Shown in pieces: positions 16,166-59,076 of a stretch of DNA of 64,000 nucleotides. Numbering within the stretch: position 1 is the first letter of the stretch; every line of letters starts with the position of its first letter. The DNA comes from Marinilabiliaceae bacterium JC040 (lineage in GTDB: Bacteria; Bacteroidota; Bacteroidia; Bacteroidales; Marinifilaceae), in NCBI GenBank assembly GCA_022496785.1, contig SNAP01000002.1:310001-374000 (forward strand). The letters are read 5' to 3'. The notes beneath the pieces were generated by a model that did no database searches, was not told where the DNA came from, and was given only the letters and a program-made list of their open reading frames with translations. Position numbers and translations under genes: made by a program.

Positions 16166-18769
16166 TTGCAATTGAAACCACTTAAGATCCTTTTTATTTC
16201 ACTTATAGTATATCTAACATATTTTTCTAATGAAAATATGTTAGCGGCTAATAATATACATCATTTCGGTGTATCACTTCAAGATACGGTTATAAACAGT
16301 AAAAAAGACACAACAAAAGTTGATTCTACAAAAAGAAAAACTCTTTTTAAAGACATCGTCACTTTTGGAGCTAAAGACTCCATTATCAACAATATGCAAG
16401 ATCAAACAGTTGAATTATTCGGTAAAGCTAAAATAAAATATCTTTCAACTCAACTAGAAGCAGCATACATTAAATTATCATTTAAAACTCAAATCGCCGA
16501 GGCGCATGGAGTTAGAGATACTAGTGGAAACTTAGTTGGAAATCCTATATTCTCAGATAATAATAACAAATTCGATTGTAAAGAATTAAAATATAACTTT
16601 AAAACAAAAAAAGGAGTTGTTACAAATCTTATAACAGAAGATAATGGAGGTTTTGTACATGGAAAATTAACTAAGAAGATAGACTCCACAACATATTGCG
16701 TAAAAAATGGATTGTACACTACGTGCGATCACAAAGATCATCCGCACTTTTATATAAATATGAGTAAAGCAAAGATGATTAAAGATGATAAAGTTGTAGC
16801 TGGATTTTCATATTTAGTAGTTGAAGAAGTTCCATTACCTCTTTTCATTCCATTTGGTTTTTTTCCTATGACAAAAAAAGGAACATCAGGAATTATCATT
16901 CCAACTTATGGTGAAGAAAAAATGAGAGGTTTCAACTTAAAAAATGGAGGATATTTCTGGGCAATAAACGATTACATAAACATGACCATATTAGGAAGTA
17001 TTTATACTAATGGATCGTGGGGTACAAATATCAATTCTAGCTACAAAAAAAGATATAAATATACAGGATCTTTTAATCTTTCAACAAGTACTAATTATAC
17101 TGGAGAAGAAGGATCTCCCGACTATTCAGTAAGTAAAGATTACGCTATTAGATGGACTCATACTCAGGATCCAAAAGCACATCCATATAGAACTCTTTCA
17201 GCTTCTGTAGATATCTCATCATCAAAAAATGATTACTTCAATAAACATACAATAAACGACATTGCAAATCAAAGAAAAAGATCAAGTATCTCGTATTCAA
17301 GAAGATGGCCAGATAGTCCTTTTTCTTTAACTATGGCATTCAGTCATTCTCAGAATTCTAGAGATTCTACAATCACAATGTCATTCCCGAATTTACATTT
17401 TAAAATGAATCAAATTTACCCACTTAGGAAAAAAGAAAAAGTCGGGGAACTTAAATGGTACGATAAAATTAGCTTATCATATACTGCAGAGTTTAGGAAT
17501 TCAACTCCTGATAGACTTAAAGAAAGTAAATTACTTAGTACTTCATTTAAAAAATGGAAAAAAGGATTCAAACACTCGATACCTATAGGTGCATCTTTTA
17601 AATTATTTAAAGATTTTTCTTTTCAACCTAGCTTCAACTATGAAGGTGTTATGAATTTTGCATCAATCAATAAAGTTGTTACTGGTTATAATACAGATAC
17701 TAATGGAGCAAAAACTCCTATTATAAAAACAGATACAACTCATGGATTTAATTATTCTCAAAATTACAGAGTAGCACTTTCTCTAAATTACACACCAAAA
17801 GTTTTTGGTATGTACGTTTTTGATAAAAAATCAAGAATTGCAGCACTACGTCATGTTATATCTCCTAGTCTTTCCTTTACATACACTCCAAAATTAGGAT
17901 TCGATAATAGTCACTTCATGAATAGATATAGTTATCTTGCTACAGATGATGAAATTAAATATCAAGAATATTATAAAAGTGAAAACGTTGGAATTTATAA
18001 TGTTCAAAGAACTCCAGATAAACATCAAGGAAGCATAAACTTATCTATCGATAATAATTTAGAACTTAAGTTAAGAAACATAAACGATACAACTAAAAAA
18101 GTTCAAACTAGAAAAGTGAAGATTTTAGAAAGTTTTAGAATCAATGCTAACTACGATGTTTTTAAAGATTCTATGAAACTTAGTCAAATTGGTTTAAGTG
18201 CGAGAACTTCTTTATTTAAAAGAAGGGTTAATCTTAATTTAACTGGAAATATCGATCCTTATGCTTTAGATGCAAATGGTAATAGAATAAATAAATTTCA
18301 TGGAGGCTTAGGAAGACTAACTAGATTTACAGCTACAACAGGAATGAATTTCTCAAGTAAAAAAAGTAAAGACAAACAAAATGCCAATTCAGAAGCCATA
18401 GCAAATTATACAAATTATGTCGATTTTAATATACCATGGAATGTTAGTATAAACTATTCATATAATTATCAAAAACTAGGATTACAAAAATCGTCAATCA
18501 CTCAAATGATGCGAGTTACTGGTGATTTTAATTTAACACCTAAATGGAAACTTCGATTTAATACAGGATACGATATAACAAGGAAAGAAATAACAGCAAC
18601 ATCTTTCAGTGTATACAGAGACCTTCATTGTTGGGAAATGAACTTTAGTTGTATGCCTTTCGGTACACACCAAAGTTACAATTTTGAAATAAGAATTAAA
18701 TCTTCAATGCTTAGAGATTTAAAACTAACTAAAAAGAATAGTTGGTACGATAATAGTACAAACTTATAA
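16166..18769 (+). CDS. lptD: LptD/OstA-like outer-membrane LPS assembly protein
   Basis: LptD inserts lipopolysaccharide in the outer leaflet of the outer membrane. The 867-residue protein has a signal peptide, an OstA/LptA-like jelly-roll region (about 65-200, with VELFGKAKIKYLSTQLEAAY and later FGFFPMTKKGTSGIIIPTYG) and a long C-terminal barrel rich in alternating aromatic strands. No ATG precedes the signal peptide: the first in-frame ATG would delete it, so I take TTG at 16166 (TTG at 16172 is also possible). A -7 element at 16117 places the transcript start near 16131, in agreement. Neighbouring amidase and MCE genes support an envelope role. Confidence 0.85.
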   Translation: MQLKPLKILFISLIVYLTYFSNENMLAANNIHHFGVSLQDTVINSKKDTTKVDSTKRKTLFKDIVTFGAKDSIINNMQDQTVELFGKAKIKYLSTQLEAAYIKLSFKTQIAEAHGVRDTSGNLVGNPIFSDNNNKFDCKELKYNFKTKKGVVTNLITEDNGGFVHGKLTKKIDSTTYCVKNGLYTTCDHKDHPHFYINMSKAKMIKDDKVVAGFSYLVVEEVPLPLFIPFGFFPMTKKGTSGIIIPTYGEEKMRGFNLKNGGYFWAINDYINMTILGSIYTNGSWGTNINSSYKKRYKYTGSFNLSTSTNYTGEEGSPDYSVSKDYAIRWTHTQDPKAHPYRTLSASVDISSSKNDYFNKHTINDIANQRKRSSISYSRRWPDSPFSLTMAFSHSQNSRDSTITMSFPNLHFKMNQIYPLRKKEKVGELKWYDKISLSYTAEFRNSTPDRLKESKLLSTSFKKWKKGFKHSIPIGASFKLFKDFSFQPSFNYEGVMNFASINKVVTGYNTDTNGAKTPIIKTDTTHGFNYSQNYRVALSLNYTPKVFGMYVFDKKSRIAALRHVISPSLSFTYTPKLGFDNSHFMNRYSYLATDDEIKYQEYYKSENVGIYNVQRTPDKHQGSINLSIDNNLELKLRNINDTTKKVQTRKVKILESFRINANYDVFKDSMKLSQIGLSARTSLFKRRVNLNLTGNIDPYALDANGNRINKFHGGLGRLTRFTATTGMNFSSKKSKDKQNANSEAIANYTNYVDFNIPWNVSINYSYNYQKLGLQKSSITQMMRVTGDFNLTPKWKLRFNTGYDITRKEITATSFSVYRDLHCWEMNFSCMPFGTHQSYNFEIRIKSSMLRDLKLTKKNSWYDNSTNL

Positions 18770-55009: not shown

Positions 55010-55522
55010 ATGAGACAGAAAAAATTTAATAATAAAATACTCCCTCTGTCGGGTAAGATTTATTCTTACTCGTATAGAATATTAGGAAATAAAGATGATG
55101 CAAAAGATGTTGTACAAGACATTATGCTGAAGCTATGGGATAATAGAAAAGATTTGGATAGATATGAAAATCCCACAGGTTATATAATGCGTACTACTAG
55201 GAATTATTGTATAGATATCATTAGAAAGAATCAAAAACATAGGACGGAAGAAGTAAACGAAAGTCACATGATAAATTTCTTTCACGAAGATAATAAATTA
55301 GAGATTGATGAAAGTATGAAATATATAAGAAAGATTATAAAAACACTTCCATCTGTCCAGCAAGAAGTTGTTGTACTTAAAGATTTTGAAGGATTCACAA
55401 ATGAAGAGATATCTGAAATAACATCTTTAGGCGAGAACAATATAAGAGTGATACTATCAAGATGTAGAAAACACATTAAAGAGCAATTAATTAATAAGTA
55501 CGACATTAAAAATCCTTTATAA
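55010..55522 (+). CDS. ECF-type RNA polymerase sigma factor
   Basis: The 170-residue protein has only sigma regions 2 and 4. Region 2 is seen as ILGNKDDAKDVVQDIMLKLW with NYCIDIIRK, and region 4 as LPSVQQEVVVLKDFEGFTNEEISEI with NNIRVILSRCRKHI. It should direct RNA polymerase to a small regulon when freed from its partner. It is followed after one base by a small membrane protein, the probable anti-sigma factor, and then by a DUF4252 gene, an arrangement common in Bacteroidota. Confidence 0.95.
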   Translation: MRQKKFNNKILPLSGKIYSYSYRILGNKDDAKDVVQDIMLKLWDNRKDLDRYENPTGYIMRTTRNYCIDIIRKNQKHRTEEVNESHMINFFHEDNKLEIDESMKYIRKIIKTLPSVQQEVVVLKDFEGFTNEEISEITSLGENNIRVILSRCRKHIKEQLINKYDIKNPL

Positions 55523-55523
55523 A

Positions 55524-55901
55524 ATGAAAAAGAATATAGATCAAATAGATAAGGAATATAATGACTTCATAGAATATTCAAAAGTTGATATTCCAAACGA
55601 TATACAAGATATAGCATTAGAGAAAATTAAATTATCACAGAAAAATAAATTCAATAGAATTATAAAATGGAGTAGTGGTATTGCTGCAGCTGCCTTAATT
55701 ACTCTTTCTATAAATATTATTCACAAAAATCACGATTACAATCAGAAATATCCGTATTCGCAACAACTTACAGATAGTCAAAAGAAAGCAGAATTTGAAA
55801 ATGCTTTAAAGATTATTAACGAGAGTTTATGCGACAATACTCCAAGAGAAGAAGTTGCATACGAAGACGATAATTTCAAAATCATATTCACAAAAAAGTA
55901 A
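55524..55901 (+). CDS. Small membrane protein, probable anti-sigma factor
   Basis: The 125-residue protein has an N-terminal cytoplasmic part (1-46, helical and acidic/basic), one membrane segment (about 47-66, IIKWSSGIAAAALITLSINI) and a short outer part. This topology and its place one base after the ECF sigma gene suggest that it holds the sigma factor at the membrane. It lacks a zinc-binding ZAS motif (HxxxCxxC), so the assignment rests on context. Confidence 0.75.
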   Translation: MKKNIDQIDKEYNDFIEYSKVDIPNDIQDIALEKIKLSQKNKFNRIIKWSSGIAAAALITLSINIIHKNHDYNQKYPYSQQLTDSQKKAEFENALKIINESLCDNTPREEVAYEDDNFKIIFTKK

Positions 55902-55905
55902 TATC

Positions 55906-57309
55906 ATGAAAAAAATACTAACAATTTTACTAGTGGTTTTATTACCACTTTTAGCCTCAGCACAAAAGGATTTCAATAAATTTACAAATGCTCTAGCAAA
56001 GGATAATGGTGTAACAATTATTCGTATAGATGAAGAAATTATTGATATTTATAAAAACAGCGATTTAGATGCTGAGACTCATAATATACTTAATAATATT
56101 AAGAAAGTTAACTTAGTTAAGATTTCTAAAAGAGATGGTTATTCTGGAAAAATAGAAAATATTATTAAGATGATAGACAAATACTTCGATTTAGACGATT
56201 ATAAACTAGTTAAAAGTTCGGCTACAAGAAGAGGTAACTACAAGGTCTTTATAACAGGTTCAAAAGAGAAGCGTTTATTAGTTATAAATCAATCGAGAAA
56301 CACAACAATCACATTTATCGATATAATAGGTAAATTCAAAATCAGCGATCTTACAAAACTATCTAGAGCTCTAAATATAGAAGGTTTAAGTTCTTTAGAT
56401 GATATTTACCCAAAATCTAAATACAATAGATATAATGGTATTGACAGTAAGAAAGCTGCATATGCCAAGAAACAAGAAGATTTCTTTAAAAACAAAAAAA
56501 ACTATAAGGACTTTAAATACAAAAAGAACTATAAAGATTTTGAATACAAGAATACTAGTTCAACAAGTTTATCTCACGAAGATAGAATGAAAAAATACCA
56601 ACGAAAGATGAAAGAGATGGGTAAAGATCTTAGTGAGGAAGTAGAAAAACTATTTGTATACGCAAAATCTGATGAATTTAAAGATAGAATTAAAAAGATT
56701 GAAACATGGGCTAAAAATGTAGGTAACAGATACAGTAAATCTTTTAATAGTAAGAATAACGAGATAGACGATAAGAAAATGGACAAAATGCTTTCTAGCA
56801 TGTATAAATATGTAGACAGCAACGACGATTGTTCATACAATATCAACTTAAAAGGAGCAAAAAGTACTATAAGAATAAGTCCAGATGCAAATACAATATG
56901 CATAATAGACGGTAAGAAATGTAAGAATACAGATATTAAGAAACTTAAAAAAGGAGAATTAAGAAATCTTTGTCTAATAAAGAATAAAACAAAGAAAAAG
57001 AAATACATGGTTATAACTACCAATAAAGAACTTGGAGGAGATTATGTAAGAAGTTTTTCAAAAACTAAAACAGACAATCAACCATCAATAACAAGTGAAA
57101 ATATAGCATTCAAATATAATGGTAAAGACTATTCATACTCAAGTGGTAAAGATAAAAAGATGCCAAAACTAATTGTAGATGGAAATTTAAGAAACAGTCT
57201 TGATGGAGTAAAAATTGAATATGGATTATTACAAATTCGTCCAGCCACAAAAATCGAAAAAGAAGCATACAGTATAAAAGGGGAAGCAATTATCATTACA
57301 ACACGATAA
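55906..57309 (+). CDS. DUF4252 protein with long C-terminal extension carrying plug-like segments
   Basis: I start at 55906, where MKKILTILLVVLLPLLASAQ is a clean signal peptide; the frame from 55855 overlaps the anti-sigma gene. Residues 20-150 match DUF4252 (FDLDDYKLVKSSATRRGNYK, LLVINQSRNTTITFIDIIGK), a small envelope protein domain usually found alone at about 180 residues. Here the protein has 467. The middle holds an imperfect repeat rich in Lys, Tyr and Phe (KKNYKDFKY/KKNYKDFEY, about 198-220). The C-terminus has two segments like the TonB plug 'VDG...IIITT' pattern (334-372 and 421-467). It is probably the regulated or sensing component of the ECF operon. Confidence 0.85.
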   Translation: MKKILTILLVVLLPLLASAQKDFNKFTNALAKDNGVTIIRIDEEIIDIYKNSDLDAETHNILNNIKKVNLVKISKRDGYSGKIENIIKMIDKYFDLDDYKLVKSSATRRGNYKVFITGSKEKRLLVINQSRNTTITFIDIIGKFKISDLTKLSRALNIEGLSSLDDIYPKSKYNRYNGIDSKKAAYAKKQEDFFKNKKNYKDFKYKKNYKDFEYKNTSSTSLSHEDRMKKYQRKMKEMGKDLSEEVEKLFVYAKSDEFKDRIKKIETWAKNVGNRYSKSFNSKNNEIDDKKMDKMLSSMYKYVDSNDDCSYNINLKGAKSTIRISPDANTICIIDGKKCKNTDIKKLKKGELRNLCLIKNKTKKKKYMVITTNKELGGDYVRSFSKTKTDNQPSITSENIAFKYNGKDYSYSSGKDKKMPKLIVDGNLRNSLDGVKIEYGLLQIRPATKIEKEAYSIKGEAIIITTR

Positions 57310-57329
57310 TTACTAATATCACATTTTCT

Positions 57330-57402
57330 AAATAGCCATTATTTCTTATTTTTGTTGTTTGTAAAATATAACAACTAAAAAACTGAGAAATAATGGCTAT
57401 TT
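57330..57402. repeat. Long inverted repeat covering the start codon of the YfcC-type gene
   Basis: Bases 57330-57346 and 57386-57402 are a perfect 17-bp inverted repeat, and the right arm contains the ATG at 57393. Inside, gttgtt (57354-57359) pairs with aacaac (57370-57375), and T/A runs extend this inner stem. A -7 element TATTTTTG (57347-57354) lies between the arms. Read-through RNA from the upstream operon would hide the start codon, while RNA begun at the inner promoter (about 57361) would lack the left arm. Confidence 0.7.
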
Positions 57403-58994
57403 TTAAGAAAGTACCACACACATACACTATAGTTTTTTCTATTATAGTATTATGTGCGATATTAACATGGATAATTCCAGGAGGAGAATTTGAGAGAACC
57501 ACAAAACTCGTAGACGGAGTAGAACGAACAATTATAGTAGAGAACTCATTCCATCATGTAGACAATACCCCTCAGACATGGCAAGTATTTTCTGCATTAT
57601 ACAAAGGATTTACAAACCAATCTGGAATCATCATTTTCATATTAATGTTGGGAGGAGCATTCTGGGTACTTAACGACAGTAAATCTATAGATGTAGGAAT
57701 CTTCTCGTTTCTTAAATTCACTAAGAGACTAGAAAAGATAAAAATCTTCAGAAAGATTGGTGTCAACAATATTATTCTAATACTTATAATGTCGATGTTT
57801 TCTGCCTTTGGAGCCATTTTTGGCATGAGTGAAGAAACCATAGCATTTATAATCATTCTTATACCTTTAGCAATATCAATGGGATACGATTCAATAACTG
57901 GAGTTTGTATTGTATTTGTAGCAGCAGGATTAGGATTTGCAGGAGCAATACTAAATCCTTTCACAATAGGTATAGCACAGGGATTATCAGACTTACCATT
58001 ATTTTCAGGAATAGAATATAGAATTGTCTGTTGGATAATAATCAATATAGTAGGATTCACATTCATATTAAGATACGCAAACAGAATTCATAAAAATCCT
58101 AAACTATCTCCAGTATACGAAAACGATAAAGTATGGAGAGAAAGAGGAGATAGCAATATGGAAGATCTTAAATATTATACTCCTAAAGCTGCATGGGTAA
58201 TGTATATAGCAATACTAGCATCACTTATAGCATTCTCTTACTATTTTCCTGAAACAACATTAAAAATTGGACAATCGGAAAACACTACATGTGTAATTCC
58301 AATAGCAACAGGACTATTTGCACTATTAGGTTTAGTATCATTAAGAAAATCGGTACATTTCTTTATTCTAAATATACTACTATTCACTATTATCTTCTTA
58401 ATAATAGGAGTAATGGGTTACCACTGGTATATAATGGAAATTGCAGCACTATTCTTAGCAATGGGAGTAAGTGCAGGAATTTCATTCAACAGATCGGCAG
58501 ATGAGATAGTAAAATTATTCTTAGAAGGAGTAAAAGATATACTATCAGCTGCATTAATAGTTGGATTAGCAGGAGGAATAATAGTAATACTACAAGATGG
58601 GAAGATTATAGATACAATACTTAATTCTCTTGCAGGAACAATGCAAGATGCAGGTAAAATAACATCTGTTGGAATAATGTATGTTATTCAAAATCTAATA
58701 AATATCATTATACCATCAGGATCTGCAAAAGCAGCACTTACAATGCCTATAATGGCACCATTCTCAGATGTAATAGGATTATCACGACAAGCAACAGTAA
58801 TGGCCTTTCAATTTGGAGATGGATTCACAAATATGCTAACACCAACATCTGGTGTATTGATAGGTGTATTAGGTGTAGCAAAAATCCCATATGATAAATG
58901 GGTAAAATGGGCATGGCCTTTAATATTAGGTATGGTAATATTAGGATTCTTACTATTAATACCAACTGCAACAATGAATCTTAATGGTTTTTAG
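57393..58994 (+). CDS. YfcC-family (C4-dicarboxylate anaerobic carrier type) membrane transporter
   Basis: The 533-residue protein has about 12 membrane segments and matches the DcuC/YfcC family: VPHTYTIVFSIIVLCAILTWIIPGGEF at the start, FAIFGMSEET-like segment SAFGAIFGMSEETIAF, PFTIGIAQ and, near the end, NLINIIIPSGSAKAALTMPI and DGFTNMLTPTSGVLIG. Relatives carry dicarboxylates, amino acids or short peptides; the substrate cannot be read from sequence. It has its own likely promoter (TATTTTTG at 57347). Confidence 0.88.
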   Translation: MAIFKKVPHTYTIVFSIIVLCAILTWIIPGGEFERTTKLVDGVERTIIVENSFHHVDNTPQTWQVFSALYKGFTNQSGIIIFILMLGGAFWVLNDSKSIDVGIFSFLKFTKRLEKIKIFRKIGVNNIILILIMSMFSAFGAIFGMSEETIAFIIILIPLAISMGYDSITGVCIVFVAAGLGFAGAILNPFTIGIAQGLSDLPLFSGIEYRIVCWIIINIVGFTFILRYANRIHKNPKLSPVYENDKVWRERGDSNMEDLKYYTPKAAWVMYIAILASLIAFSYYFPETTLKIGQSENTTCVIPIATGLFALLGLVSLRKSVHFFILNILLFTIIFLIIGVMGYHWYIMEIAALFLAMGVSAGISFNRSADEIVKLFLEGVKDILSAALIVGLAGGIIVILQDGKIIDTILNSLAGTMQDAGKITSVGIMYVIQNLINIIIPSGSAKAALTMPIMAPFSDVIGLSRQATVMAFQFGDGFTNMLTPTSGVLIGVLGVAKIPYDKWVKWAWPLILGMVILGFLLLIPTATMNLNGF

Positions 58995-59032: not shown

Positions 59033-59076
59033 AAAATCCATATCTTAGTAAATAAAAATACTAAAATATGGATTTT
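59033..59076. repeat. Inverted repeat covering the start codon of the ZIP transporter gene
   Basis: AAAATCCATAT (59033-59043) pairs with 59066-59076, which includes the ATG at 59068. The stem continues as ttagta (59045-59050) with tactaa (59059-59064), leaving one mismatch and an 8-base loop. This 17-bp hairpin would hide the start codon in mRNA that includes the left arm. Confidence 0.65.

Follow-up and report, generated by a model that had tools for sequence, protein, structure and literature searches.

In the genome of Marinilabiliaceae bacterium JC040, the start codon of a YfcC/DcuC-type transporter gene (yfcC) lies in one arm of a perfect 17-bp inverted repeat that has a promoter-like site between its arms and that folds, in the predicted RNA, into a hairpin resembling an intrinsic terminator. 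We propose that the element is a transcription–translation insulator between tandem genes, in the form of a hairpin of the terminator type with a right arm that also serves as the start region of yfcC. We give this proposal an even chance of being correct. What the analysis establishes directly is the inverted repeat, the position of the start codon, a promoter-like site between the arms, the predicted fold energies and the resemblance to terminators. The window, which is the whole stretch of 64,000 nucleotides that was analysed, belongs to an AT-rich Bacteroidales genome of Bacteroidota type (2.56 Mb in 117 contigs, about 29% G+C). The relevant features, in window coordinates, are the following.

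55010–57309, + strand: operon in tandem upstream, coding for an ECF sigma factor and for proteins of 125 and 484 aa; a possible source of read-through
57324–57327, + strand: TTTT as candidate –33 element, in register with the TTTG/TTG of the genome's promoters
57324–57411, + strand: complete hairpin in the RNA, with its outer, inner and perfect stems; fold energy –31.7 kcal/mol
57330–57346, + strand: left arm of the perfect 17-bp inverted repeat, AAATAGCCATTATTTCT, between the –33 and –7 elements and upstream of the predicted transcription start
57347–57354, + strand: candidate –7 element TATTTTTG (TAnnTTTG, consensus in PMC7366714), transcription start expected near 57361
57354–57375, + strand: inner stem GTTGTT/AACAAC with a 10-nt loop, from repeat search and RNA fold
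57386–57402, + strand: right arm AGAAATAATGGCTATTT, which contains the ATG and spans –7 to +10 relative to the start of the yfcC/dcuC-type gene
57393–58994, + strand: yfcC (PF03606, E 1.8e-101, 533 aa)
57398–57405, + strand: T-rich tail TATTTTTA, directly past the last G–C pair of the stem, as in the genome's terminators

The ATG of yfcC (57393–57395) is secure, since homologues share its N-terminus: they open with MFKKVPHTY, MLKKVPHTY or MALFKKVPHTY. It follows the stop of the upstream gene, which ends at 57309, after a gap of 83 nt, the two genes being in tandem. That upstream gene (55855–57309, 3' of the ECF sigma gene) encodes a 484-aa protein which has no Pfam match, although it had been labelled DUF4252; its two halves are weakly similar to proteins of about 400–430 aa in relatives.

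The inverted repeat is as the preliminary description had it: AAATAGCCATTATTTCT and AGAAATAATGGCTATTT are perfect reverse complements separated by 39 nt, and the right arm contains the ATG and extends into codon 4. Ungapped scoring stretches the arms to 30 nt at 87%; the perfect repeat is part of an imperfect hairpin some 30 bp or more in length, and in the RNA fold the outer extension is UUUUCU/AGAAAG. The RNA from 57324 to 57412 folds with –31.7 kcal/mol (z –8.2; none of 200 shuffles was equally good), the AUG being situated in the 3' strand of the hairpin. No second copy of the repeat was found in the genome, and an origin from a mobile element or a repeat family is therefore rejected. An Rfam search of the hairpin returned only sub-threshold matches of microRNA type, which were discarded.

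The repeat is longer than expected by chance: when 20 first-order Markov copies of the window were generated, their longest arms measured 12–16 bp and none was of 17 bp. Genome statistics were drawn from samples of 464 or 864 kb. The 464-kb sample holds 25 perfect repeats with arms of at least 14 bp, of which only that of yfcC covers a start codon; the remainder mostly come after stop codons. Scored for inverted repeats that cover the start, yfcC reaches 18, the top of about 600 starts (the next ones reach 15, 14 and 12), while 13 was not reached in any of 6,660 upstream regions simulated with a Markov model. Starts also exceed Markov upstream regions and internal Met codons in this respect. 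They are not enriched over other intergenic ATGs of the genome: a score of at least 10 is found for 13 of 598 starts (2.2%), versus 93 of 3,666 other intergenic ATGs (2.5%), a set that includes terminators. For this reason we claim no class of start-covering repeats and treat the yfcC repeat as one extreme case. In two relatives of higher G+C content none of 224 starts scores at least 10, versus the 13 of 598 given above.

The energetics of the start region single out yfcC in the same way. Opening this region in the long transcript is predicted to cost 26.0 kcal/mol, which ranks first among 320 sampled starts (mean 4.4, s.d. 2.8), and the predicted unpaired probability of the AUG is 0.001. For an RNA initiated at the internal promoter, modelled as beginning 14 nt past the position where the –7 element starts, the predicted cost drops to 3.8 kcal/mol. 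The relief obtained by removing the left arm, 22.2 kcal/mol, is the largest of all (8.2 for the next gene, median 1.6). At the level of prediction, these values fit the earlier claim that full-length RNA hides the ATG and that RNA from the internal promoter leaves it open.

The hairpin also has features of an intrinsic terminator that would serve the upstream operon, a point which the preliminary description had overlooked. In the sampled part of this genome a hairpin follows 232 of 643 stops (36%) versus 23 of 562 coding controls (4%), and the commonest tail past the last G–C pair of terminator-like hairpins has 6–7 T in 8 positions; the tail TATTTTTA, with T at 6 of 8, falls within this mode. 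The first base of the perfect stem, 57330, lies about 20 nt past the upstream stop, and the stem base AAATAGCCAT (A-rich/GCC) resembles TAAAAGCCATCTTTAT, another ordinary post-stop hairpin of the genome. The position after a stop, the stem base and the T-rich tail are thus those of Rho-independent terminators. Unlike these, the yfcC stem is long, imperfect and low in GC, and its right arm is the start region of the next gene. The 10-nt loop and the internal mismatches depart from the compact stem and short loop of an intrinsic terminator, and strict hairpin scans did not call the yfcC hairpin because its upper part is looser. Action as a terminator would achieve the same insulation by another route, and it is on account of these marks that we read the element as an insulator.

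The same marks fit another explanation, in which the hairpin is no more than an intrinsic terminator of the usual kind for the ECF operon, packed so closely that it overlaps the next start by chance, and masking serves no separate purpose. Half of the tandem gaps of 60–120 nt in the genome contain a hairpin, most long hairpins in the 464 kb come after stops, the tail matches that of terminators, and the next gene, which encodes a ZIP transporter (start 59068), has a similar hairpin over its start. However, 17 perfect pairs that run into codon 4, with a promoter between the arms, exceed what a terminator needs, and such an overlap is rare, being seen at just a few of about 600 starts. We consider this explanation possible but doubtful.

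Regarding the promoter, TATTTTTG at 57347 is the only exact TAnnTTTG on the + strand between 57151 and 57460. In this genome the motif is about 4-fold enriched 15–60 nt before starts compared with further upstream, and the promoters that contain it have TTTG or TTG about 20–23 nt upstream of the start of the –7 element, a pattern that agrees with the Bacteroides consensus (PMC7366714). In yfcC the sequence at this place is TTTT, which fits only 3 of 4 positions. The left arm takes up the spacer of this candidate promoter, and the transcript, expected to start near 57361, would therefore lack it. The promoter proposed earlier between the arms is thus plausible, with TATTTTTG in place and the elements in the register of the genome, rather than proven. 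Many relatives also have a promoter-like site 30–90 nt before the gene.

A promoter flanked by inverted arms invites two further readings. In the first, each arm is a dyad (AAATA-N5-TATTT) for a regulator that binds DNA and represses the promoter between the two sites. AAATA GCCAT TATTT is indeed present in each arm, the arms flank the –7 element, and a different repeat of the genome, which precedes an XRE-like gene, looks operator-like. Yet arm-like sites elsewhere number 66 versus 63 for a reversed-pattern control, and of the 8 nearest matches inspected, 7 fall inside genes; an operator regulon is rejected on this lack of excess, and the operator reading as a whole is very unlikely. The repeat before the XRE-like regulator gene (L093:2941-2994) is perfect over 17 bp (TGTATTACATTTGTAAA), with a 20-nt spacer, and stands just before the gene; its left arm contains a –7-like element (TACATTTG), and it is probably an autoregulatory operator.

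The second of these readings is a phase-variable invertible promoter, whose arms would recombine and flip the 39-bp promoter segment. The host belongs to the Bacteroidales, where such promoters lie between inverted repeats in the range of 10–40 nt (PMC11892184, PMC8748976); the yfcC repeat has the right length (PMC11892184), and the flip would abolish TAnnTTTG. Against this, the spacer is very short (39 bp), the right arm enters the coding sequence, and there is no sister repeat. The genome has only two tyrosine recombinases, of Xer-like size and on other contigs, and no serine resolvase was found in it. With no candidate invertase in the genome, inversion was set aside as extremely improbable.

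Conservation was compared at the level of family and order, in about 45 homologues that are roughly 54–71% identical, a set with no genome of the same genus. The inverted repeat is absent from these homologues, and in most of them the start is more open than in yfcC here. The preliminary description had looked to paired conservation of the arms; with the repeat absent no compensatory changes can be counted, and relatives at the family level are too distant to refute the pairing. Covariation can neither support nor refute masking, because these relatives lack the repeat and none is of the same genus. The idea that the hairpin masks the ATG is partly supported: it fits unusually well in energetics and layout (rank and relief as above). 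A gene of the 484-aa type adjoins yfcC in none of the 13 relatives that have both genes, which suggests that tandem read-through would be new in the lineage. Since the homologues lack the repeat and the 484-aa-type gene lies elsewhere in relatives, the layout would be young in the lineage or confined to it.

The element may instead be an accident, in which template switching in replication made an inverted copy of the start region that is not, or not yet, selected. The right arm is old coding sequence, and the left arm is missing from relatives; partial pairing occurs both outside and inside the perfect 17 bp, as expected for a decaying inverted copy; and inverted repeats are common in the intergenic DNA of this genome. 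An accident would leave as coincidences both the top rank in masking and an in-register promoter whose RNA escapes it, and we find it unlikely.

In the insulator that we favour, polymerase arriving from the ECF-sigma operon would transcribe the whole hairpin, and the stem followed by TATTTTTA could end incoming transcription as an intrinsic terminator. In any RNA that runs past this point, the ribosome-binding region and the AUG would be locked in the stem. The promoter of yfcC itself, inside the hairpin DNA, would give an mRNA with its 5' end near 57361; lacking the left arm, this mRNA would undergo normal translation. For the living cell, read-through, termination, masking and initiation at the internal promoter are inferred.

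The mechanism is of an already known kind, and is predicted here from the sequence. The transposase genes of IS10 and IS50 are protected from outside transcription by RNA fold-back. As proposed for yfcC, read-through RNA that carries both strands of the repeat hides the start, and transcripts begun at the internal promoter lack one of the two strands; the IS10 and IS50 repeats are transposon ends, whereas the yfcC repeat is single-copy and has no transposase. In phage T4, early read-through RNA masks the starts of genes e, soc, 49 and I-TevI, and RNA from an internal late promoter frees them; for lysozyme, masking cuts synthesis 100-fold, and leaders of similar kind occur in related phages (PMC3014915, PMC2988022). 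As in the layout proposed for yfcC, a long incoming RNA folds over the start, the promoter lies past the 5' strand of the helix, and a gene embedded in another transcription unit is insulated. Unlike the T4 genes, yfcC codes for a chromosomal Bacteroidales transporter with a candidate promoter of Bacteroidota type and a terminator-like hairpin that is not conserved in relatives, and the case is a sequence prediction; the T4 designs share only the masking half of the proposed insulator. No relatives of the transporter were found in viral contigs.

In this genome the layout of arms plus promoter is seen for yfcC and for a ComEC-like gene, and the hairpin part alone for the ZIP gene. In the ComEC-like gene (PF03772; L115:12211-13707, – strand) an inverted repeat with perfect 14-bp arms covers the ATG, and TATTTTTG stands between these arms. 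The ZIP transporter gene has its ATG in a hairpin (window 59033–59076) with 18-nt arms that are 94% complementary and an 8-nt loop; opening its start costs 15.3 kcal/mol (rank 2 of 320). These two cases are leads. An LptD-like gene (16238–18769) likewise has its start codon covered by a perfect 12-bp hairpin with a 7-nt loop (window 16214–16244).

A wider conjecture, and quite an unlikely one, is that some compact, AT-rich Bacteroidales insulate tandem genes by terminator–start hairpins with a promoter inside, so that only RNA begun there is translatable. If the insulator reading of yfcC is true, the device known from phage T4, a start hidden in read-through RNA and freed by initiation inside the hairpin, serves ordinary chromosomal genes too, and one piece of DNA can be both a terminator and a start region. 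Short tandem gaps can then mislead operon prediction, since the downstream gene would be cut off from the RNA of its neighbour.
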